Shown here: one piece after another, positions 3,206-18,005 of the stretch
Layout of the letters: the number at the start of each line of letters is the position of its first letter
How positions within the stretch are numbered: the stretch's first letter is position 1
DNA from: Methylicorpusculum sp.
GTDB lineage: Bacteria > Pseudomonadota > Gammaproteobacteria > Methylococcales > Methylomonadaceae
DNA length: 64,000 nucleotides
Assembly: GCF_030651835.1 (NCBI RefSeq)
Contig: NZ_JAUSBX010000011.1
Location: 1 to 64,000, forward strand
Direction of reading: 5' to 3'
Notes under the pieces: model-generated
Told to the model about the DNA's origin: nothing
The model's database searches: none
The model's input: the letters and a program-made list of their open reading frames with translations, nothing else
Translations under genes and position numbers: made by a program

Positions 3206-3233
3206 CTAAAAGCCAGCAGTCTACAGACTGGCT
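3206..3233 (-). terminator. Intrinsic terminator of the fds operon
   Basis: On the minus strand AGCCAG...CTGGCT forms a stem that overlaps the fdsD stop codon and is followed by TTTTAG. It marks the end of the formate dehydrogenase operon. Confidence 0.65.
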
Positions 3234-3451
3234 CAGCTGGAACGGGCCAGATCGTCAATGGCTGTTTTAACAATGCCATGAAGCGCTGTGCCGTCTTTTT
3301 CGCAATAGTCAATGATCTCGCGGCGCATTCTCGGATCCCAGGATCTTAAAATATGATTTCTGATGCCGACAGATGCCGCCTCTTTGTCACTTTCTGCGTT
3401 AAAAAAATCGCCTATGTCATTGGCCATTTTGATGAGTCTTTCTATATTCAT
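3233..3451 (-). CDS. fdsD: Formate dehydrogenase delta subunit FdsD
   Basis: A 72-residue protein starting MNIERLIKMANDIGDFF, with a W-D-P-R-M-R-x-x-I motif typical of FdsD. In soluble NAD-linked formate dehydrogenases this small subunit is needed for activity or assembly, probably together with FdhD, and is not an electron carrier; it has no cysteine cluster motif. Its start overlaps the fdhD stop by 4 bp (ATGA type), indicating translational coupling. It is the last gene of the operon and an intrinsic terminator overlaps its stop codon. Confidence 0.93.
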   Translation of the reverse strand: MNIERLIKMANDIGDFFNAESDKEAASVGIRNHILRSWDPRMRREIIDYCEKDGTALHGIVKTAIDDLARSS

Positions 3452-4323
3452 GGTAATTCGTTCTTGATCAAGGAAGGATAAGGGGGATGTGTCAACCTAC
3501 GGGAGTGAGCATAAACCACATGCTGATCATCGCGGGCAAAGCCGACCAGCGTCAGTCCGGTTTCTTCCGCCAAACGTATTGCCAAGCCTGTAGGTGCAGA
3601 AATGGCCGCCAGCATAACGATGCCCACACTGGCCGTTTTTTGAACCATTTCGTAGCTGGCCCGACTGGTCACAATCACAAAACCACCGGCTAGATTCTCT
3701 GCATTCGATAATAGCGAACCTATCAGTTTATCCAGCGCATTGTGCCGACCTACATCCTCGCGAATGTTTTGAATGCCGGAACCGGGGACAACCCAGGCTG
3801 CGGCATGGACGGCTCCGGTCAATTGATTAAGCCGCTGATGCAGCTTGATTTTATCCAATGTATTCAAAAGCTCGGCTGCGGTTACCGTCAACTCGCCTTG
3901 AACGGGCTCAGGACTGCGGACGGCTTGCTGCAGCGTACTGGCACCGCATAAGCCGCAACCGGTGCGGCCTGTTAAATTTCTGCCTTTATCTGACAAACAT
4001 TGGAAGCGCTGCTCCGGAATTTTCAACCTGACTTCAATGCCATTGGAACGCGTCACGACGCGCGAATTAAGCAATTCGGAACGGTCCTTGATAATTCCTT
4101 CGGTGATACTGAAACCCAAGGCAAAATCTTCAAGGTTAGTCGGTGTCGCCAGCATCACAACATGCGGCTGACCGTTATAAACCAGAGAAACGGGGACTTC
4201 CTCGGCAATATAATCCTGCTGCACAATCTGCTCGCCCCCGGTCCAGCGTTCGACCCGGCTTTGCTGGTAACTGGGCCAACCCAGTTCCAGCGACGACGGC
4301 ATAACAGCAGAGCCGTTAAGCAT
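3448..4323 (-). CDS. fdhD: FdhD, formate dehydrogenase accessory sulfurtransferase
   Basis: A 291-residue FdhD-family protein. It delivers sulfur (via IscS in the E. coli system) to the bis-MGD cofactor of formate dehydrogenase so that the metal gains its sulfido ligand. The functional CxxC is Cys123-Gly-Leu-Cys126, within GRTGCGLCG. The conserved C-terminal GxDVGRHNALDK-type motif (here REDVGRHNALDK) and TSRASYEMVQK are present. Its start overlaps the end of fdsA by 8 bp, so FdhD is made with its client. Length is normal for the family. Confidence 0.95.
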   Translation of the reverse strand: MLNGSAVMPSSLELGWPSYQQSRVERWTGGEQIVQQDYIAEEVPVSLVYNGQPHVVMLATPTNLEDFALGFSITEGIIKDRSELLNSRVVTRSNGIEVRLKIPEQRFQCLSDKGRNLTGRTGCGLCGASTLQQAVRSPEPVQGELTVTAAELLNTLDKIKLHQRLNQLTGAVHAAAWVVPGSGIQNIREDVGRHNALDKLIGSLLSNAENLAGGFVIVTSRASYEMVQKTASVGIVMLAAISAPTGLAIRLAEETGLTLVGFARDDQHVVYAHSRRLTHPPYPSLIKNELP

Positions 4324-7168
4324 GGTGACTACCTTGTTCCAGCAATTCCAGTTGCTGCTGTGAAAATGCCTCGTATTTTTGCTGCCATTCTGATGATTGG
4401 CTTACTTTAGCGACCTGCACCGCGGTAACTTTATATTCCGGACAGTTGGTTGCCCAATCAGAGTTATCGGTGGTAATCACATTCGCACCCGATTCAGGAA
4501 AGTGGAACGTGGTGTAAACCACGCCCGGCTGAACCCGTTCGCTGATCAACGCACGTAACACAGTTTCACCGGAACGACTTTTAATTCCTACCCAATCGTC
4601 ATTAACAATACCTCTGTCTTCGGCATCATGAGGATGAATTTCCAGGCGGTCTTCGGAATGCCAGGCGACATTTTCGGTACGTCGGGTTTGCGCGCCGACA
4701 TTGTATTGCGACAGAATCCGGCCGGTGGTCAGAATCAGCGGGAACATGCGGGTTGTACGTTCCTGAGTCGCGACATACTCGGTCAGCATAAACAAGCCTT
4801 TACCACCGGGACGCATAAAGCTTTGCTCATGCATGGTCGGTGTGCCGTCTGGTGTTTCATCATTACAAGGCCACTGCACACTGCCCAGGCGGTCAATTTT
4901 TTCATAGCTAACGGACGCAAAAGAAGGCGTTAATCGGGCAATCTCGGCCATGATTTCGGAAGGATGCGAATAATTCATTGGATAGCCCATCGCATTGGAC
5001 AGCAGTTGCGTAATCTCCCAGTCTTCATAACCACCCAAAGGTTTCATGACTTTACGCACGGGTGAAATACGGCGTTCGGCATTGGTGAAGGTGCCGTTTT
5101 TTTCCAGGAAAGACGAACCGGGCAAAAATACATGCGCAAATTTGGCGGTTTCATTCAAAAACAGATCCTGCACGATCACGCATTCCATTTCCCTTAGTGC
5201 ATGGTGGACATGCTGAATGTCGGGGTCCGATTGCGCAATGTCCTCGCCTTCGACATAAAGCCCTTTAAAAGTGCCGTCACTGGCGGCATCGAACATATTC
5301 GGAATGCGCAAACCGGGTTCGGATTCAAGTATGACATTCCAGTCATTTTCAAACAGCGTGCGCGTTTCGGTATCGGACACATGGCGATATCCGGGGAACT
5401 CATGCGGAAACGAGCCCATGTCGCAGGAACCTTGAACGTTGTTTTGACCGCGCAACGGATTGACACCCACCCCTTCCCGGCCCAGATTACCTGTTGCCAT
5501 CGCCAGATTGGCAATGCCGATGACTGTCGTTGAACCTTGACTGTGCTCGGTAACCCCCAAACCATAGTAAATGGCGCCATTGGCTCCGGTAGCATAAAGC
5601 CTGGCCGCTGCTCGCACATCAGCAGCCGGCACACCGGTCACTGCTTCTGTCACTTCAGGCGCATGGCGCGGATCGGCGATAAAGGTTGTCCATTTTTCGA
5701 ATGCCGCCTTCTCGCAGCGTTCTTGCACAAAGTCTTGATCGACTAAATTTTCAGTGACGACAACATGTGCAATGGCATTGATCAAGGCAACGTTAGTACC
5801 GGGCCGCAGTTTCAGATGATAATCGGCTTTGACATGCGGGGTTTTGACCAAATCGATGCCGCGAGGATCTATAACAACCAGTTTTGCGCCTTGACGCAGA
5901 CGTTTTTTCATCAACGACCCAAAAACCGGATGACCGTCCGTCGGGTTAGCACCGATAACCATGATGACATCAGCTTTCATCACCGAATCAAAGTTCTGGG
6001 TTCCGGACGATTCACCAAAGGTTTGTTTGAGCCCGTAGCCGGTGGGCGAATGGCAGACGCGGGCGCAGGTGTCGACATTATTATTACCGAAACCGGCGCG
6101 AACCAGTTTTTGCACCAGATACGTTTCTTCATTGGTGCAGCGCGATGACGTGATGCCGCCTATTGCACCAATACCATAATTTGCCTGGATGCGCTTCAAC
6201 TCGGATGCGGCATAACTGATAGCCTCTTCCCAACTGACTTCCTGCCAGGGATCTTTGATGCTTTTACGAATCATCGGTTGGGTAATACGATCTTTATGCG
6301 TCGCATAACCGAACGCAAACCGGCCCTTGACACAGGAATGGCCATGATTGGCTTTGCCGTCTTTGTGCGGCACCATACGGATAACCTGATCGCCTTTCAT
6401 TTCTGCCCGGAATGAACAGCCGACGCCGCAATAAGCACAGGTCGTAACAACCGCATGTTCAGGCTGACCATGCTCGATGACCGATTTTTCCATCAATGTC
6501 GCCGTTGGACAGGCTTGCACGCAAGCACCACATGAGACACATTCCGAATCCATAAAGGCTTCGTTTTGGCCGGGCGAGACTTTGGAATCAAATCCGCGTC
6601 CGTCTATGGTCAGTGCAAAGGTACCCTGGGTTTCCTCGCAGGCTCTGACACAACGGGAGCAGACGATACATTTACTGGGATCGAAGCTGAAATAAGGATT
6701 GCTTTCATCCTTCACCGCATTCAGATGATTTTCACCTTGAGGGTTATAACGGACCTCACGTAAGCCCACCGCACCGGCCATGTCCTGCAATTCGCAATCG
6801 CCGTTTGCCGAACAAGTCAAGCAATCCAGGGGATGGTCGGAAATATAGAGCTCCATGATCCCGCGGCGAACATCGGCCAGCTTTTTATTCTGCGTGACCA
6901 CTTTCATGCCTTCGGCAACCGGAGTAATACAGGAAGCGGGCATACCTCGCGCGCCTTCAATCTGGACAACACACAGGCGACAGGAACCAAAAGGCTCGAC
7001 GCTGTCAGTGGCGCATAATTTCGGAATATCGATACCGATGCTTGCTGCCGCCCGCATCACCGATGTTCCGGCAGGCGCTGTCACCTGAAATCCGTCGATT
7101 TCCAGATTAACCAGCGTAGAAGCAGTCCTGGCGGGTGTTCCAAAGTCTTGTTCTTTATTCATGGACAT
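4316..7168 (-). CDS. fdsA: NAD-dependent formate dehydrogenase alpha (catalytic) subunit
   Basis: A 950-residue cytoplasmic molybdo/tungsto-bis-MGD subunit that oxidises formate to CO2. In order: a 2Fe-2S ferredoxin domain (Cys52, 63, 66, 80), a NuoG-like His112/Cys116/119/125 cluster site, two 4Fe-4S motifs (Cys167/170/173/177 and Cys210/213/216/220), then the catalytic domain opening with the 4Fe-4S motif CAYCGVGC (244-251). The metal-ligand residue is Cys372 in ARVCHSPTG, not selenocysteine, followed by the catalytic His373. The C-terminal molybdopterin dinucleotide-binding domain is present. GGAGG lies 8 bases before ATG 7168. It sits 19 bp after fdsB in the operon. Mo versus W cannot be told from sequence. 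Confidence 0.97.
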   Translation of the reverse strand: MSMNKEQDFGTPARTASTLVNLEIDGFQVTAPAGTSVMRAAASIGIDIPKLCATDSVEPFGSCRLCVVQIEGARGMPASCITPVAEGMKVVTQNKKLADVRRGIMELYISDHPLDCLTCSANGDCELQDMAGAVGLREVRYNPQGENHLNAVKDESNPYFSFDPSKCIVCSRCVRACEETQGTFALTIDGRGFDSKVSPGQNEAFMDSECVSCGACVQACPTATLMEKSVIEHGQPEHAVVTTCAYCGVGCSFRAEMKGDQVIRMVPHKDGKANHGHSCVKGRFAFGYATHKDRITQPMIRKSIKDPWQEVSWEEAISYAASELKRIQANYGIGAIGGITSSRCTNEETYLVQKLVRAGFGNNNVDTCARVCHSPTGYGLKQTFGESSGTQNFDSVMKADVIMVIGANPTDGHPVFGSLMKKRLRQGAKLVVIDPRGIDLVKTPHVKADYHLKLRPGTNVALINAIAHVVVTENLVDQDFVQERCEKAAFEKWTTFIADPRHAPEVTEAVTGVPAADVRAAARLYATGANGAIYYGLGVTEHSQGSTTVIGIANLAMATGNLGREGVGVNPLRGQNNVQGSCDMGSFPHEFPGYRHVSDTETRTLFENDWNVILESEPGLRIPNMFDAASDGTFKGLYVEGEDIAQSDPDIQHVHHALREMECVIVQDLFLNETAKFAHVFLPGSSFLEKNGTFTNAERRISPVRKVMKPLGGYEDWEITQLLSNAMGYPMNYSHPSEIMAEIARLTPSFASVSYEKIDRLGSVQWPCNDETPDGTPTMHEQSFMRPGGKGLFMLTEYVATQERTTRMFPLILTTGRILSQYNVGAQTRRTENVAWHSEDRLEIHPHDAEDRGIVNDDWVGIKSRSGETVLRALISERVQPGVVYTTFHFPESGANVITTDNSDWATNCPEYKVTAVQVAKVSQSSEWQQKYEAFSQQQLELLEQGSHHA

Positions 7169-7187: not shown

Positions 7188-8741
7188 TTAAGCCGCTTCA
7201 GCTTGATCGGTCAGTCCGAAATCGAGCGGAAAATGGTTTAAGGCGCTTAAAACAGGATAAGGCGTCATTCCGCCCAGGGCGCACAAGGAGCCATTGAGCA
7301 GGGTGTCGCACAAATCGCGCAGTAACGGGATGTTTTTATTGAGTTCGCGGCCATTGATAATGTCATCCAGTACTTCCATGCCGCGCGTCGATCCTATCCG
7401 GCAGGGTGTGCATTTGCCACACGATTCTATGGCGCAAAACTCCATGCTGTAACGGGCCATTTCCGCCATATCGACCGTGTCATCGAAAACCACGATGCCG
7501 CCATGCCCGACAACGGCCCAAATAGCGGCAAACGCTTCATAATCCAGGGGTGTATCGAATTGTGATTCGGGTAAATAGGCCCCCAAAGGACCGCCGACCT
7601 GCACCGCCTTGATCGGTCTTCCGCTGGCTGAACCGCCGCCAAAGTCATAAAGCAATTCACGCAAGGTCAAACCGAATGCCAATTCAACCAAACCGGGACA
7701 TTTGATATTACCGGCCAGTTGTATCGGTAAGGTTCCGCGCGAACGGCCCATGCCGAAATCGCGGTAGAATTCACCGCCTTTATCCAAAATGATAGGGACT
7801 GAAGCCAACGAGATAACATTATTGACGATAGTCGGTTTACCGAATAATCCGCTGATTGCGGGCAGTGGTGGCTTAAATCTGACCAAGCCACGTTTGCCTT
7901 CCAGGCTTTCCATTAGCGACGTTTCTTCACCACAGACATAAGCGCCGGCACCCAGGCGGACTTCCAACTCAAAGGTTTTACCGCTACCCTGAATGTTTTG
8001 ACCCAGATAGCCTGCCGCATAAGCCTTAGCGATTGCGGTATTCAGCGCTTTGTGAGCATGCGGATATTCAACGCGCAAATAGATATAACCTTGCGTCGCT
8101 CCCACCGCAATACCGGCGATGGTCATGCCCTCTATCAGCACAAACGGATCGCCCTCCATCACCATGCGATCGGAAAAAGTACCCGAATCGCCTTCATCGG
8201 CATTACAGATAATGTATTTTTGATCCGCCTCGGCATTCAATACGGTATTCCATTTGATTCCGGTTGGAAATGCCGCACCGCCACGGCCACGCAAACCGGA
8301 ATCGGTCACCTGCCTGACAATGTCTGCACCGCTGATGGTCAGCGCATTATTGAGACCACGGTAGCCGTCATGTGCCAGATAATCTTCCAGACTGACCGGA
8401 TCGGTAAGCCCGATCCTGGCAAAAGTCAAACGTTGCTGTTTTTTAAAAAACGGCAGTTCTTCTGTTAAACCTAAAAACAAGGGGTGCGGACTGCCGCTCA
8501 GAAAGCCGGAATCGAACAATCCGGAGACATCATGCACTTGTACCGATCCATAAGCGACCCGGCCCAGCTCAGTCAGCACTTCCACTAAAGGCTCCAGCCA
8601 GAACAGTCCTCTTGAGCCATTTCGAATCAAGCGGATATCGATACCTCGCTGTTGCGCTTCCCGGCTGACTACCTGGGCAATTCGTTCCGCGCCCAACGCT
8701 AGTGCGCCTGAATCACAAGAGATATAAACAGTGACCGCCAT
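7188..8741 (-). CDS. fdsB: Formate dehydrogenase beta subunit, NADH/FMN-binding
   Basis: A 517-residue homologue of respiratory complex I NuoF with an N-terminal thioredoxin-like extension, as in soluble formate dehydrogenases. The glycine-rich GLRGRGGAAFPTG segment near 150-160 binds FMN/NAD. Downstream are GAGAYVCGEETSLMESLEG and the C-terminal 4Fe-4S motif ESCGKCTPCR. It passes electrons from the FdsA clusters to NAD+. AGGAG precedes ATG 8741, and only 2 bp separate it from the fdsG stop. Length and motif order are normal. Confidence 0.96.
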   Translation of the reverse strand: MAVTVYISCDSGALALGAERIAQVVSREAQQRGIDIRLIRNGSRGLFWLEPLVEVLTELGRVAYGSVQVHDVSGLFDSGFLSGSPHPLFLGLTEELPFFKKQQRLTFARIGLTDPVSLEDYLAHDGYRGLNNALTISGADIVRQVTDSGLRGRGGAAFPTGIKWNTVLNAEADQKYIICNADEGDSGTFSDRMVMEGDPFVLIEGMTIAGIAVGATQGYIYLRVEYPHAHKALNTAIAKAYAAGYLGQNIQGSGKTFELEVRLGAGAYVCGEETSLMESLEGKRGLVRFKPPLPAISGLFGKPTIVNNVISLASVPIILDKGGEFYRDFGMGRSRGTLPIQLAGNIKCPGLVELAFGLTLRELLYDFGGGSASGRPIKAVQVGGPLGAYLPESQFDTPLDYEAFAAIWAVVGHGGIVVFDDTVDMAEMARYSMEFCAIESCGKCTPCRIGSTRGMEVLDDIINGRELNKNIPLLRDLCDTLLNGSLCALGGMTPYPVLSALNHFPLDFGLTDQAEAA

Positions 8742-8743
8742 GA

Positions 8744-9214
8744 TTAAGCTCCTATCTCGACTAATGAACGATCAAAGGTTTCCGGAGAAACCCGCCCGAA
8801 AACCTCCGAGTCAATCTGCATCGCCGGTGAACAGGAACAAAGTCCCAGGCAATAAACCGGTTCCAAAGAGAACTTGCCGTCCGGAGTGGTTTCGTGAAAA
8901 TCAATACCCAGCCTGTTTTTGACATGCGCTTCCAAGTGCTTACTGCCCATAGCCTGACACGATTCCGCCCGGCATAAATGAATCGTATGCTGACCCGGAG
9001 CCGATTCCCTGAAATAGTGATAAAAACTGATCACGCCATGCACTTCCGCACGCGACAAGTTCAGTTCTGAGGCGATAAAAGTAATGCTGTCTTTGGGAAT
9101 ATAGCCGAATGCATTTTGAATCTCATGCAGGATGGGCAGCAAAGCGCCGGGCTTATCCTTGAGGCGTGTAGTGATGTCTTGCAATGTCGTTTGCATCGAA
9201 GCGGTTTCAGTCAT
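8744..9214 (-). CDS. fdsG: Formate dehydrogenase gamma subunit (NuoE-like)
   Basis: A NuoE-like thioredoxin-fold protein carrying one 2Fe-2S cluster; the ligands are the Cys pairs in [10 protein letters not shown] and [10 protein letters not shown]. The N-terminal helical domain includes [11 protein letters not shown]. The start at ATG 9214 (156 residues, MTETASMQ) is preferred: a purine-rich GCGAGA lies upstream and the length fits the family. An in-frame ATG at 9298 would add 28 residues of unusual composition with no ribosome site. First gene of fdsGBA-fdhD-fdsD. The start choice is the only doubt. Confidence 0.92.
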
Positions 9215-9380
9215 ATTTATCTCGCTATGCGATCCGGATCGGCTCAGACACTCACGGATCGGAGCCGGGTAATTAAAAGTCACTTGGAATTGAGCCATCA
9301 GTCATTAAACCGGACGTTTTAAATTAGACAGGAGCAGTCAATCCTTCTGTAATGAAAGCAGGTCAATTATCTCTACTCTC

Positions 9381-9398
9381 GAGAATATCATGAGAATA
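9381..9398. promoter_or_regulatory. Direct repeat GAGAATA upstream of the fds operon
   Basis: GAGAATA occurs at 9381-9387 and 9392-9398, an 11-bp period that puts both on one DNA face. A TCTCGAGA palindrome overlaps the first. It lies 167 bp before fdsG in the regulatory gap shared with the divergent regulator. It is a candidate protein-binding site, not identified with any known factor. Confidence 0.35.
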
Positions 9399-9539
9399 CT
9401 CTTTTGTAAAAAACACATAATAAAACATAATTTAACAATTTATAAAATGACTCGTTAAATTGATTATTTTTCCTATTTTTTATGTCTTTTAATTATAGGA
9501 ACAAAGTTTGATCTGTAAAAATCACAATTTTTTGACCTT

Positions 9540-9560
9540 ATTATCACTGATTCTGATAAT
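9540..9560. promoter_or_regulatory. 21-bp inverted repeat between the regulator and the fds operon
   Basis: ATTATCA (9540-9546) and TGATAAT (9554-9560) are perfect 7-bp arms with a 7-bp spacer, in the divergent gap between fdsG and the HTH regulator. The position, about 30 bp upstream of the regulator's candidate -35 box, suits an operator. The bound factor is unknown. Confidence 0.45.
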
Positions 9561-9591
9561 GTCTTACGGGAAAGCCGGCCATACACTGAGA

Positions 9592-9622
9592 TTGCTTGGA
9601 CCTGATAAGCTCGCTATATTGT
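9592..9622 (+). promoter_or_regulatory. Candidate sigma70 promoter of the regulator, overlapped by a ModE-like half site
   Basis: TTGCTT (9592-9597), a 17-bp spacer and TATATT (9615-9620) make a good promoter for the regulator at 9657. CGCTATATTGT (9612-9622) covers the -10 box and resembles one half of the molybdate-responsive ModE box of E. coli (CGTTATATTGT). The second half is not convincing. Confidence 0.45.
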
Positions 9623-9656
9623 TGGGCCAAGTAATGCTTTTAGCGAGGTCTGTCCC

Positions 9657-10544
9657 TTGTCCGACATGATGACCGTTCATGAGGTTGCCGAATATTTGCG
9701 CGTAAAAGAACGCAAGATTTATGATTTAATTACTCAAAAACAAATTCCCTGCACCCGCGTGACCGGAAAATGGCTTTTTCCCAGGTATTTGATCGATATG
9801 TGGTTGATGCAAAACAGCGAGTCGGTCTCACAAGACACGTTATTCAGAACCGTTCCTGAAATTGTCGTAGGCAGTCATGACCCACTGTTGGAGTGGGCTT
9901 TACGCGAAAGCAGCCTGCCTATGGCCATGCAGGCCACCGGAAGTATGGAGGGTTTGAGCCGCTTTGCAGCTAGTGAAGCGCTGATCTGCGGCATGCATGT
10001 TCTGGATACCGAAAGCGGGGAGTTCAATGTCCCGGTGATTAAAAACGCGTTACCGGATCACAGCGTGGTCGCAATCGAGTGGGCTTGGCGTGAACAAGGA
10101 CTGGTCGTCGCAGCGGGCAATCCTTTGCAAATCATTTGCATGGACGACCTGATCAACAAGAAAGCGGTTTTAATCGATAGGCAAAGCGGCGCAGGGAGCC
10201 GCATTTTGCTCGACTATTTGCTTGAAAAATCAGGGATAGACAAGACACAAATCAAAATCGCTGACAAACCTGCCCGAACCGAAATTGATGTAGGTCTGAC
10301 CATCTCCAGCGGCAAAGCCGATGCCGGTATCGCGGTAGCTTCGGTCGCGAGGCAACTACATCTGGATTTTATCCCGTTGACAAAAGAACGCTTCGATCTG
10401 GTGATGCGGCGTTATGATTATTTCGAAGCTCCGGTTCAACGCCTGCTTGAATTTACACACACACCCGCATTTGCGGAAAAAGCCAGGGAACTGAGCGGTT
10501 ATGATTTATCGGGTGCAGGTAAAGTCGTTTTGAATTTACGTTAA
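9657..10544 (+). CDS. HTH (excisionase-type) regulator with C-terminal PBP-like domain
   Basis: 295 residues. The first ~55 form a MerR/excisionase-like helix-turn-helix (VHEVAEYLRVKERKIYDLI...GKWLFPRYLIDMWL). The rest (about 70-290) resembles a periplasmic-binding-protein-like ligand domain of the type fused to such HTHs and to some molybdopterin proteins. Divergent from the formate dehydrogenase operon, so it is probably its regulator; with a Mo/W enzyme as neighbour, molybdate, tungstate or formate are possible ligands (inference). TTG 9657 is taken as start because GCGAGG lies 8 bases upstream; ATG 9666 is the alternative. It is unlike the LysR-type FdsR described in Cupriavidus. Confidence 0.82.
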   Translation: MSDMMTVHEVAEYLRVKERKIYDLITQKQIPCTRVTGKWLFPRYLIDMWLMQNSESVSQDTLFRTVPEIVVGSHDPLLEWALRESSLPMAMQATGSMEGLSRFAASEALICGMHVLDTESGEFNVPVIKNALPDHSVVAIEWAWREQGLVVAAGNPLQIICMDDLINKKAVLIDRQSGAGSRILLDYLLEKSGIDKTQIKIADKPARTEIDVGLTISSGKADAGIAVASVARQLHLDFIPLTKERFDLVMRRYDYFEAPVQRLLEFTHTPAFAEKARELSGYDLSGAGKVVLNLR

Positions 10545-12137: not shown

Positions 12138-15100
12138 CTAACTTTCGTCTTGATTGATTAAAGGCGCTACGGACTGCAAAAAAGGCGACAACACCTGATC
12201 AACTTCGGCCAATTCCGCCAGAATAATATCCAATGACTGCCCTTGATGGATGGCAAGATCCAACGCTGCAGCTTGACTGTGTATGACTTCTAAACCCAGG
12301 GTTGCGGAAACGCCTTTCAGTGTATGAGAAAGGCGTTTCGCCTTTTCCATTTCGCCCGTTGCCAGATGACTCCTCATTAATGCGACATCTTGTCCATGAC
12401 CCTCTACAAACATTTTGAGCAGTTTGGCATATTTGGTCATATTGCCTCTGACAACGCTCAAACCGGCATCGAGATTCACCCCGTCAAGCCCCTCTAAAAG
12501 TGATCTCAAAGCATAATCGTCCTGAGCTTTTTTATCTTCATTGAGCTTAATTGAGCCGATTTTTTGATTTATTAACCACTTCAATATAATTTGGTAAAGC
12601 AGATCGGGATCGACAGGTTTGCCGATAAAGTCATTCATACCCGCATTTAAACAAAGCCGTCTATCCTCGTCAAAAGCATTTGCCGTCATTGCCAGAATGG
12701 GAACTTCTTTATTACCAGGCGATTGACGAATCAAGCGCGTGGCTTCCATGCCATCCATTACCGGCATTTTCATATCCATCAAAACCAGCGCATAAGACCG
12801 CAGCTCCATTTGCTGCACTGCTTTGAGACCATTATCGACAATATCTACCTGCAAACCAACTGCCGCCAGCAATTCGCGGGCTACCTCCTGATTGACAAGA
12901 TCATCTTCTGCAACAAGAACCCGGACCTCTGCATATTGACTGCGCAAAGTTTGCTCTGCCACGTTACTCTCCTTACACGTCCAGGTCATTTGATCAGGAA
13001 TATTTTGACTCTGGGTTTTACCTAATAAAACGGAAAACCAGAAAAGGCTGCCTTTTCCCAGTTGACTTTCGACACCTACATCACCCCCCATCAACAAGGC
13101 CAAACGCTTGGTAATCGCCAATCCTAGACCCGTGCCGCCAAACCTGCGCGTCGTCGACTCGTCGGCCTGGGTAAATGCTTTGAACAATTTTTTCTTTTGA
13201 TCATCAGCCAGGCCGACACCCTGATCTTTAACCGCAATACGCAACATAACCGCTGCTTTGTCTGTTTCAATCACCTGGGATGTCACGGTAATTTGTCCGG
13301 AGTCGGAAAACTTGATCGCATTACCTAAAAAATTAATCAGCATCTGCCGCAAACGAAGTGCATCACCGATCAAAACCGCAGGAACTGTCGGATCATGTTC
13401 CATGACCAGTCGCAAACCTTTTTCTGCGGCTCGCTGGCCCACCATGCTTAGCGCATCACCCATCAAGCGTTGCGGTGCAAATTCACTCTGTTCAATGTTC
13501 AATTGCCCTGCTTCAATTTTTGATAAATCGAGAATATCATTGATGATAGCTAATAAATGCTGAGCCGCATCTTCAACCTTACCTAATTGGTTCCGGGAAT
13601 GAGGATCGGTAATAGCCTTTCGCAGCAAATGCGTCAAACCAAGAATAGCATTCATTGGCGTCCGAATTTCATGGCTCATATTGGCCAGGAACGTACTTTT
13701 CGCCTGATTGGCTTCTTCAGCTTGCCTTTTGGCCTCAACCAGCTCAACGGTTCGAGTCTGCACCAGCTCTTCTAAATGCCCCCGATAGTTATTGAGCTCC
13801 TGCTCGGCTATTTTTCGTGAAGTTATATCCCGGCTAATACAAAATACCAACTTTTCGCCATCCCAAACGGTACCGCTGGCGCTGACTTCAACATCGAAAA
13901 GAAAACCATCTTTACGGCGATGCTGTGTTTCAAAAATAGTCTGGGTCTGTAACAGATTGGAAAAGTCTTTTTCAACCTGCTCTTGAGTAAAGCACGCATC
14001 GAAATCCCAAGTATAAAGATCCATCACCTCCTCGACGGTGTACCCCAGCATATCGGCAAAACGCTGATTAGCCTCACGCACCCGATGCTGCTGATCAATG
14101 ATGACTATGCCGTCCCTTGAATTATCGATCAGCGCCTGACGACGTTCCATCTCGTACGCCAGTGATTTTTCAAGCTCTCTGTGCTGAGTGATATCCGTCC
14201 AGATCGCAACGATAAAGTAACAATTCTGCAGTTTGATCATCTGCTTGCTGATATTCATGTTTCGCAGGCGACCGTCTGCGTGCAGTAAAACCGTTTCAAA
14301 ATTATCATTACCTGCTTCAAGCATACTCGAACTGCTATACTTGGCCGAAGCGGGCACAAGATCCTTAATCCCTAAAAGCTTGAAATCTTCCCGGTCATAC
14401 CCTAATCCCAAGCAAGCTGCCGAATTGAATTCGACAAAGCGGCCCATAACCGGGTCAATCAACACTATCCCTACCGCCGCCTGTGTAACGATAGAACGGA
14501 AAATTTCGTTACGCTCCCGAAGCAGTCTAGCCGTTTTCCGCCTGTCCATAACACTCGCCAAACGCTCAGCTATGCTATCGATCAAGATGCGTTCTTCTGG
14601 TAAAAACAGCGACTCCACTTTAAACGGCGGCTCTGCTGTATAGATAACACTGACACTCCCTATCAGTTCCTGCTGGGATTTGATAGCCGCTGTCTGGACA
14701 TAGGGACTATCCTGATAAAGATCACTGGTGTAAAACGTTCCACACCATTCAATACAAGCTCCGGCGATGTCGTTATATCGCCAACCATCGGGCAACAGAT
14801 CGACTACTCCTTGCAGCATCACCTCCAGATCCTGCTCCACATTTTCAGTAATGCTGTACACAGCGTGCAAACATTTCTGCTCTTTGATACGCTCGTTAAG
14901 CGCCAACTGAATTTCCCGCCTGTCAGTGATATCCCGAGTAACACCTAAAACGCCTATCAACTGATTAGCACTGTCGTACATCGGCGTTTTTATTGTTTCA
15001 AAATACCCCCTGTAACCGCCGTCGGCAAAAGTCAGCCATTCTTCATTTACGCGAGACTGATTGGCTTTTATCGCCTCAAGATCATTTTTTCTGAAAAAAT

Positions 15101-18005
15101 CAGCCTCTTCCTGACTGAAATAATCGTAATCTGATGTTCCTATCGCATCTTGTTCGGAAACGCCTAAAAGTCGCTCAAACATCCGGTTGCATGAAATGTA
15201 AAAACCTCCGGGATCTTTTACCCACACTAAATCAGGTATCGTTTCAATGAGGGTTCGCATCCTTACTTCACTCAGTTTTAAAGCAGCATCATTCTGCTTG
15301 CGTTCACTGATATCCCTGACAATCACCTGTATAAAAGTTTGCCCCTCCATGCTAAACGAATTTAAGTGAATCTCTGCATCAAATTCAGCGCCAGAAAGCT
15401 GTTTATGCCGCCATTCAAACAGACTAAGCTTTCCCTGCATGACTTGATCAATTTTAATTTTGACCAATTCGACAGAATCAGAGCCGTCCGGCTGAACCTG
15501 TGGCGAAAACACCGCCGGTGAGGCGCCTATAAATTCATCACGTTCACAACCAAAAAGCTGCAAGGCTTTTTCATTGCACGCTACAAACAGACCATCCTGG
15601 ATTATCGCAATGGCATCGGCTGAGTTCTCGAATAATGTGCGGTATCGGATTTCGCTGGCATGGATTAGCGCTTCAGTCCTGGTACGCTCGGATATGTCGC
15701 TCCAAATAGCGACCAAGAAAGGCCGCTCTCTAAGATAGATCAGAAAGTTATTGGCGCGTATATACATCAACGCACCATTTTTATGTCGATGTACCGTTTC
15801 GAAAACATACATCCCGGCTTTAGCTATTTCTCTAATTTTAATCGCCACCTGATTGGCATCCATCTCGCCTTGTATATCAGGAATACTCAAATTAGAAAAT
15901 TCCTCACGGGAATACCCCAACCCATGACAAGCCGCCTCGTTAAATTCTACAAAACGAAACGTATCAACATCAATCAGGCAAATGCCATCCGAGGCATTAG
16001 TCACTATGGCGCGATAAATTTCCTCACGTTCAGCCAAAGCGGTTTGTAAATATTCCTGGGGAGTAATGTCTTTGTAGGAAATAACCCGGCACGGGGCGTC
16101 TTTAATAACCAGGGACTTACTGCTGCGCGTTAGTACTCTGCCATCCTGACAATACAGCTTGTCGCGGATGACATCCCGGTCCAGATGAAGGCTTGAACCA
16201 AAAAAATCTCGATGATCCGGATCAATTAACTGATCCAAAACGTGTTGATGAAGAACTGTGTAGTCTGGTGTATTGACCAAATTAGCCGGAATTCGCCAAA
16301 GTTCGAAATAGCGATGATTGGCAATCAAAACTTTATTGTCTTGAGTGATGACCAGAATGCCCTCGTCGGTAGAATCCAAGGTCATCTTCAATAGCGCTTC
16401 CGTATGGAGTAACTGATCTTCCGTCCTTTTTTGCAGCGTAATATCGGTAAGCATCGAAAAACTACCGGCAAACTGATCATTTTCATCGGTAATTGCCGAG
16501 GTCGTGACTTTGACCCAAACGACTTGCCCGTCTTTGTCACGCATACGTTGTTCATATTCAGCCGGCAAGCCTTTTTTTACCTGCGCCATCAGCCGTCGAT
16601 GATCATCCAGATCCTCATCCGGAATAAACCGGCTAATAGCCAGCCCAATCAGTTCAGGTTCAGACCAACCTAATAGCGCCGCGATACGCTTATTCACAAA
16701 CGTGATTCGCTCGCTTGCATCCAGTGTCAAAATACCCTCGTTTGCCAGTTCCATAATGCGCTGATTACGCAGCTGACTTTCGGCTAAAGCCAGTTCGTTT
16801 ACTTTGCGCTCCGTGATGTCCATCGATGTGCACAGACTGAGTTCAGGACGCCCCAACTGATCACGCCTGACCACCCTTGATCGCGTGTGTAACCAAAGCC
16901 AATCCGAGAGGTCAGATCTCATCCGGTAAACCACATCTACCAGGGGATTGTCAGCCTGCATCGCTTGATCAAACTGGAATATGACGCTGTCTTTATCATC
17001 AGGATGAACGAGCGCCAGCCAGTCATCAAAAGTCTTGGCCGCTTCCGCTGCTTCAATCCCCAATATTTTTAAACAGTTTTCCTGAAAACGCAGCCTGCCA
17101 CTAACAAAGTCAATTTCCCAAAAGCCCAGATGGGTGACTTCTACCGCTAAACGTAAACGCTGTTCAATATGCCGACGACTCGCCGCTAACTTGTCCTTTT
17201 GATGCTGGGTCGCCGCCAACAAAATATTGGTACCAATTCGCTCCATTAAGCTGTGGCGACTGATAAGACCTTCCACTTTGCTTTGCTGATTAACAACCAC
17301 CAGATGCTGCAATGATTGGCATTGCATAAGCTCTAACGCATCAAGAACCGCTGTAGTGCTTGGCACAGTCATAGCCGGCTGATGCATTATTTGCACGACC
17401 GGAATCAAGTTTAAAGGACTGGAATTCATCGCTGAAATGACAGCAGGAATATCTCGCTCAGTTAAAATCCCCAGCGATTTTTCGTCTTCCATGACCAACA
17501 CATAGGAACTTTGTTTTAGCAACATCAAAGCTATTGCTTCATCTAAAGATGACGAAGAATGTATGCGCGGCAACTCCTTATCCATAATGCCATTAAGATC
17601 TCCCAACTGCCTTACCAACGTCACGCCCATATGCCTGAAAAAATCAGACTCACTGACGATACCGGCAACCAACTCGTGCTCATCGACAACCACAAGATGG
17701 CGGATTGGACGATCCAGAAACAGCGTTAAAGCTGTCTCAATAGTGCATTTTTTCTTAATCGTTACAACAGGCGAGGTCATGACCTCATTAATCGGAGTAA
17801 GAGGGGAAATATGCGCGTGAGCCAGTTTCAACAAATCCCGCTCAGTTAAAATTCCCAGCGGTTTGCCGTGTTCCGTTATAACAATCGAAGAAATTTGATC
17901 CTCAGCCATTTGTCTGGCCGCTTGACCCAGCAAACAATCCGAAGAGACCAGGCATACCGCAACGTTCATGATGTCGGCAGTGGTCAAATCATAAACTGAT
18001 TTCAA
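12138..18005 (-). CDS. Giant hybrid histidine kinase: 4 CBS, 8 PAS, GAF, HisKA-HATPase-REC-Hpt
   Basis: 1955 residues with no signal peptide or membrane helix, so probably a cytoplasmic sensor. In order: four CBS motifs (about 1-262) likely to bind adenine nucleotides; six PAS domains (about 275-1040); a GAF-like domain (about 1045-1190); two more PAS (about 1195-1430); HisKA with phospho-acceptor His1445 in MSHEIRTP; HATPase; a receiver with Asp1744 in LVLMDMKMP; and an Hpt with His1894 in LSHTLKG. All phosphorelay residues are present. The start is TTG 18005, supported by AAGGGG 8 bases upstream. No response regulator gene adjoins it, so its target is elsewhere. PAS4 and PAS7 are strikingly alike (FVEFNxAACxGLGYxRE), suggesting internal duplication. 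Confidence 0.93.

Follow-up and report, generated by a model that had tools for sequence, protein, structure and literature searches.

The locus raises the question of what a small regulator that faces a formate dehydrogenase operon senses and what it controls. In the window, by which we mean the whole stretch of 64,000 nucleotides that was analysed, the regulator ORF (9657..10544, plus strand; ORF call, domain searches and structure model) encodes 295 amino acid residues from a TTG start. Facing away from it, wholly on the minus strand, is a complete NAD-linked formate dehydrogenase operon, fdsG-fdsB-fdsA-fdhD-fdsD. This arrangement of an HTH/PBP-like regulator opposite formate dehydrogenase, proposed in the initial annotation, was confirmed by the ORFs and by Pfam and NCBIfam searches. 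TTG is the likely start of the regulator because GAGG, 7-8 bases 5' of it, is kept in the window and five aligned relatives (by eye). ORF calls and domain searches gave fdsG (8744..9298) and fdsB (7188..8741), and fdsA (4316..7168), formate dehydrogenase alpha, matched TIGR01591 over its cut-off. The gene fdhD/fdsC (3448..4323) was named by eye from its translation, and a small fdsD-like ORF of 72 amino acid residues (3233..3451) was also named by eye. The start of fdsG is perhaps the ATG at 9214, since the alignment with many relatives begins only at about residue 24-28. At 12138-18005, the window also encodes a 1955-amino-acid-residue sensor protein in which CBS, many PAS-like repeats, kinase, receiver and Hpt-like parts were recognized by eye.

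The regulator consists of two domains. An HTH_17/excisionase-type DNA-binding domain (9666..9815, plus strand) was matched by Pfam PF12728 at residues 4-53 with E 4.6e-12, and the NCBIfam excisionase domain TIGR01764 matched at 43 bits (cut-off 28.8). It is followed by a PBP-like ligand domain, which was matched by Pfam PBP_like (PF12727) at residues 84-267 with E 1.4e-60 and spans residues 65-295 in the model (9849..10541, plus strand). This E-value, together with regulator orthologues (96%, 96% and 83% identity) that are divergent from fds in three relatives, makes the match more than chance. HTH_17 and PBP_like were the only Pfam matches at E ≤ 0.001, a ModE-type HTH and a TOBE/Mop domain being absent at that threshold, and no LysR-type N-terminal HTH was found in the Pfam and NCBIfam searches. 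In the AlphaFold2 model (mean pLDDT 92.2, pTM 0.76), the HTH part extends to about residue 52 and is joined to the PBP domain by a loose linker.

A sequence search of solved structures with the regulator gave weak matches (best PEB3, E 0.073), and when the profile of the regulator family was compared with that of TupA, the probability was 7% (E 0.0048); R175-S181 aligned to the arginine motif of TupA, but we give this match no weight. A Foldseek list for the PBP domain, ordered by E-value, was headed by LysR regulators and PEB3, with a Geobacter tungstate binder at rank 21 and ModA at rank 36. A second structural comparison put phosphate-binding proteins, ModA and tungstate-bound WtpA first (Z about 16-19), followed by sulfate binders, glutamate binders and LysR effector domains at Z 15-16. 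The modelled fold is compatible with an oxyanion binder, and it cannot separate molybdate from tungstate or phosphate. Sensing of formate or of some other small organic acid by the domain, giving substrate induction, seems to us very improbable. The regulator does adjoin a formate enzyme, and the LysR proteins and glutamate binders in the two lists would suit such a ligand, but the second comparison was led by binders of tetrahedral oxyanions and the clade mates of the regulator adjoin metal-oxyanion transport genes (see below).

FdsR is a LysR-type regulator divergent from fds-like operons, and ModE regulates in response to Mo or W. Both names had entered the initial annotation, in which the HTH/PBP protein was said to replace FdsR and to carry a ModE-like half site in its own promoter. 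The replacement was not borne out, as no LysR gene was recognized opposite fds in the neighbourhoods of 16 relatives of the order (ORFs read by eye, first 80 residues). LysR-like genes of genomes that carry the regulator were seen by eye to be divergent from a second, W-type formate dehydrogenase (L218, 4106-5089; L224, 10404-11285). The half site CGCTATATTGT is present exactly, at 9612-9622, and contains the -10 box of the candidate regulator promoter TTGCTT-17-TATATT (9592..9620, plus strand), which was picked by eye, has a poor -35 and is absent from the promoter-scan list. With one mismatch, two words occur in the window against 0.88 expected, and 28 of 100 shuffles reach two. In view of this overlap and this frequency, CGCTATATTGT carries little weight as a ModE site, and an operator at the -10 box was rejected as evidence, the word being the TATATT of a likely promoter and too common. 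A ModE-type protein may act at the regulator-fds gap, given two ModE-type HTHs elsewhere in genome G000, both below the family cut-off (E 2.9e-22 and 1.5e-21).

Gene neighbourhoods of the homologues were read in a scan of named genomes, from which the best 80 of at least 579 related loci were kept. The tungstate uptake genes tupA or tupB were near the homologue in 50 of these 80, and fdsGBA was near it in four (a Methylomicrobium MAG, Methylotuvimicrobium buryatense 5G, a gammaproteobacterial MAG and Methylobacter marinus A45). The initial annotation had asked whether homologues lie mostly at unrelated genes; tup, fdsGBA, moaA or fdhD was on the stretch in 63 of the best 80 loci, and none of the four in the remaining 17. 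One of the 17, L131, had two weak ABC-transporter matches, and mop-modABC was seen by eye at L213, the locus of its congener; in G620, the regulator itself adjoins mop-modABC (by eye). In a class-wide sample, homologues at E ≤ 1e-15 occurred in 56 of 369 genomes. For a distant clade with HTH_17 and PBP_like domains (L082-L101, 26-36% identity), 20 of the 23 full-length loci listed were read, and fdhD was close by in 18 of them. A further formate-dehydrogenase-like gene was often observed in that clade besides fdhD. In a tree of 68 rows, with bootstrap values not fully settled, the ten Methylococcales rows formed one clade (100/99) apart from the others, and the rows beside it were mostly tup-linked. 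Such a placement would suit a regulator that was passed down from a tup-linked ancestor as baggage and has no action on fds, a reading that the operator and gene losses described below make improbable.

To obtain a motif, expectation-maximisation was run on roughly 250 bases of DNA preceding tupB, or preceding the regulator in loci that offered no tupB. The training set comprised 75 loci (L106-L181 minus L131), none of which was fds-linked. The learnt motif, GtAAaataTGCAgnAaaATGCAgaAa, is a tandem half-site with a 10-bp period (width 26). Likelihood scores at widths 16 and 22 were 172-330 for real input against 53-81 for letter-shuffled input, the latter with one letter-shuffle per case and fewer starts (150, against 250 for real input). 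When both strands of the 64-kb window were scanned with this motif from other organisms' loci, the best match was located in the regulator-fdsG gap, at 9406-9431 (plus strand), with a score of 18.4; the next match in the window scored 11.9. This predicted operator is made of tandem ACATAA repeats with a 10-bp period. The first null, 175 pieces of 360 bases, was mostly coding and hence mild, and same-region shuffles were added; the window site was reached by none of 400 dinucleotide shuffles and none of 400 column-permuted motifs. Only the expectation-maximisation motif serves as an independent test, because the pattern RCATAW-N4-RCATAW, which misses G001, was chosen after the sequences had been viewed.

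The eight divergent fds-regulator gaps that were read all contained a match, with scores of 11.4-20.8. Four of the eight scored just 11.4-12.7 and were matched by 4-16 of 400 shuffles, the weakest being G611 (reached by 11 of 400) and G613 (16 of 400); the G001 gap scored 15.2, which 4 of 400 shuffles reached. In Methylobacter marinus, a strong site was near the regulator end of the gap. The fds upstream scored 11.8 in G593, where the regulator is downstream of fds. At nine fds upstreams from genomes without the regulator or a visible remnant, eight scores were at most 7.4 and the ninth, that of G598, was 9.9. Among the tup-linked loci, which had been used to train the motif, 40 of 45 tupB upstreams had a site above 11, centred at a median of 73 bases before tupB. 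The motif was not found upstream of tupA in six carrier genomes, upstream of the W-type enzyme in five, upstream of the regulator in G593, G447, G037, G620 and L131, or in the mop-side gap of G620, all of which scored from -6.9 to 7.7; the tupA scan covered only the DNA before tupA and its divergent neighbour. A switch based on this regulator would thus act on fds alone. The lack of a site at tupA and the W-type enzyme would also be in keeping with baggage, but in G447, whose regulator is elsewhere, the fds upstream contains a strong site (21.9).

Two candidate fds promoters, both on the minus strand, were obtained by promoter scan and alignment. The main candidate, TTTACA-16-TATAAT (9492..9519; 11 of 12), is kept in five of six aligned rows (by eye), the exception being Methylobacter marinus, and is located upstream of the predicted operator relative to fds. 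The second, TTTACA-17-TATTCT with TG (9382..9410), has a -35 that overlaps the predicted operator. Another conserved block, GTAAAAATCACAnTTTTTTGAC, was observed at 9515-9540 of the window, at and upstream of the -35 of the main candidate, and is perhaps the site of another regulator.

An FdsA query had matches in 58 of 61 relatives. These were of two types, one with at least 78% identity (fds) and a second with 35-40%; a further match in G056 was at 32%. tupA was present in 29 of 30 genomes with the second type (exception G051) and in 0 of 28 fds-only genomes. The company of the second type with tupA agrees with published labels, from which the names W-type and Mo-type are taken. In the available text of PMC5652258, M. 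buryatense fdh1 is labelled 'tungsten' and fdh2 'molybdenum', and in that of PMC5802761, M. alcaliphilum has a W-dependent enzyme and a partial Mo-dependent one (Fds2); the labels in both are predictions, except for the W effect on formate excretion. Among the 61 relatives, the regulator was found in exactly the five that have fds, the W-type enzyme and tupA. One of these five, G037, was still counted as a carrier with a broken, internally deleted fds and a regulator with an internal stop. At L063 of this genome (3072-5644), the start of fdsB is fused to an internal part of fdsA and followed by the regulator with its stop, either by decay or by an assembly join.

A survey of 311 Methylococcales genomes gave 13 carriers of the regulator (E ≤ 1e-40). 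All 13 had fds or a piece of it, in line with the co-occurrence with fdsGBA that the initial annotation had put forward as a check. The regulator was present in 11 of 15 genomes with fds (or a piece) and tupA vs 2 of 296 others (Fisher p 1.9e-15) and, by genus, in 7 of 7 vs 1 of 43 (p 8e-8), p-values that are inflated by relatedness in both tables. The fds and W types were told apart by identity in the 61 relatives and by E-value in the 311 genomes (about 0 vs about 1e-129 to 1e-205), for which two candidates per genome were scored and the table was tallied by hand. G550 was placed in the class with fds and tupA because its contig ends in an fdsG fragment beside the regulator. In eight carriers the regulator is divergent from fds (G000, G001, G002, G011, G486, G550, G611 and G613; G011 was taken as M. 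buryatense 5G and G486 as M. marinus A45), in two it is downstream of fds (G593, G037) and in three elsewhere (G447, G620, G626).

Carriers without tupA were G620 and G626. Conversely, an intact regulator was missing from four genomes that have tupA together with all or part of fds, namely G546 (79% complete), G598 (7% contamination), G610 and G446. Three tupA-less congeners of Methylobacter marinus (G485, G487, G030; L199, L200, L201) have regulator pseudogenes at the same place by fds. The fds-bearing, tupA-less G614, from the genus of M. buryatense, has only the first regulator codons, followed by unrelated sequence (by eye). In G610 (C2:228384-230288; L238, L250), regulator residues 210-295 abut fdsA residues 398-950 on the opposite strand; most simply, one deletion would have removed the front of the regulator and of fdsA plus fdsGB. 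This layout matches the partial Fds2 reported for Methylotuvimicrobium alcaliphilum, a likeness that rests on genus and partial fds. In G446, tupA and fds are accompanied by a regulator remnant and a surviving site. These patterns suggest that the regulator is kept with both metal systems and tends to go when either is lost, G620 and G626 being exceptions. The site outlives the intact gene, lost or left as a remnant, in five genomes (G485, G487, G030, G614 and G446; scores 11.4-18.7), as it might if the regulator were baggage; the presence of fds or a piece in 13 of 13 carriers and the joint truncation of regulator and fds in G610 argue against that reading.

We consider it probable that the protein is an oxyanion-responsive TaoR-type regulator of the Mo-type fds in methanotrophs that own a W-type enzyme, that is, a W/Mo isoenzyme switch. 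The computed basis of this reading is the domains, the fold class, the neighbourhood, the shared motif, the co-occurrence and the co-loss. The cytoplasmic PBP domain would bind tungstate and/or molybdate, and the regulator would bind the tandem 10-bp-spaced ACATAA-like repeats at 9406-9431. From this operator it would control fdsGBA-fdhD-fdsD, matching expression of the Mo-type enzyme to the W/Mo supply, with the W-type enzyme and tupA elsewhere in the genome. Our guess is that the tungstate-bound regulator represses fds and is released under tungsten shortage, since the site is placed between fds and its best promoter candidate and also covers part of the -35 of the other one. The promoter layout and the tupB-proximal sites fit repression, the action reported for TaoR on tupABC. 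With the second candidate promoter alone, activation would also fit.

The regulator might instead be a molybdate-responsive activator of the Mo enzyme, acting by feed-forward with no W/Mo switch, which we regard as unlikely, though less so than baggage or formate sensing. The label of fds as Mo-type in the available text of PMC5652258, the regulator beside mop-modABC in G620 (by eye) and the site abutting the -35 of the second promoter candidate all speak for it. However, tungstate uptake genes are found at 50 of the best 80 loci (of at least 579), the better of the two promoter candidates is upstream of the site, and the regulator has decayed in fds-bearing, tupA-less genomes, an outcome not expected of a sensor for Mo alone. 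The Mo/W-oxyanion-responsive HTH/PBP control of fds first proposed is supported by the neighbourhood, the candidate operator, the co-occurrence and co-loss, and the fold; the ModE half site as operator, the novelty of the kind and the replacement of FdsR are not supported.

Going further with the W/Mo switch, it seems to us an even question whether a tungstate-uptake regulator, apparently acquired once, was re-aimed at the Mo isoenzyme, such that Mo-formate dehydrogenase would be made only at tungsten shortage and lineages losing either metal system would discard the regulator. In M. buryatense, according to the available text of PMC5652258, formate excretion rises by more than two orders of magnitude once the Mo enzyme is lost, and loss of the W enzyme alone gives no phenotype. 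With the tungsten content of the medium left aside, these phenotypes are as expected if the Mo enzyme serves at tungsten shortage. In M. alcaliphilum 20ZR, tungstate lowers formate excretion from 45.8 to 2.4 mg per g dry weight, according to the available text of PMC5802761. No regulator is named for a W/Mo switch of methanotroph formate oxidation in the available text of the cited literature. Formate oxidation sets the NADH supply and formate loss of methanotrophs, and the regulator, if the reading is true, would be the missing piece of the W/Mo formate-oxidation switch in gammaproteobacterial methanotrophs. The switch is directly testable, as a candidate regulator and its defined 26-bp site are at hand and gene removals have been published for one species, M. 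buryatense (PMC5652258).

Several known systems can be compared with this regulator. LysR-type FdsR is likewise divergent from an fds-like operon and has an effector domain of PBP-like fold, but its HTH is of another family, and in this genome a LysR-like gene (by eye) sits at the second formate dehydrogenase. ModE belongs to the same metabolic area and is Mo/W-responsive; the window regulator, in contrast, has neither a ModE-type HTH nor TOBE, and the word put forward as its ModE half site coincides with a -10 box. TaoR, which we take to be DVU3193 of Desulfovibrio vulgaris, is the regulator of a tungsten enzyme; this excisionase-like protein reportedly activates aor and represses tupABC at plentiful tungsten. 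Members of the family have Mo/W transport or Mo/W enzyme genes as neighbours, and such genes adjoin the regulator in the window (fdsGBA) and in its clade (63 of the best 80 loci). DVU3193 appears in PMC10102598 under the name tupR. In the available text of PMC11980592, TaoR is described as having HTH and PBP-like domains, and the 'TaoR-like' proteins of that paper add a TOBE domain, which the window regulator lacks. The architecture of an HTH_17/excisionase-type domain followed by PBP_like (PF12728, PF12727, TIGR01764) is that of TaoR by this published description. Since both domains are shared, the kind of regulator is already known, and the claim of a circuit of undescribed kind did not hold. 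Unlike TaoR, the window regulator is beside an NAD-linked Mo-type fdsGBA, and tupA is located elsewhere and has no motif before it; among the open papers listed in a literature search, none dealt with TaoR at methanotroph fds. The same PBP_like domain occurs with other partner domains in a Mo/W context, in MoeA-PBP_like fusions and in regulators with a ModE-type HTH plus PBP_like. An archaeal MoeA-PBP is proposed to bind tungsten and is found with TupA in bacteria, according to the available text of PMC11733289, and in G447 the regulator adjoins a moeA-PBP fusion (by eye). As a parallel pairing, another HTH plus PBP_like protein was observed by tupA in G037 and G020 (L008, L009, L024), of ModE type in G037 by family match. 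Among these systems, the regulator is best seen as one more protein of the TaoR kind, for which a new role as a W/Mo isoenzyme switch is plausible.
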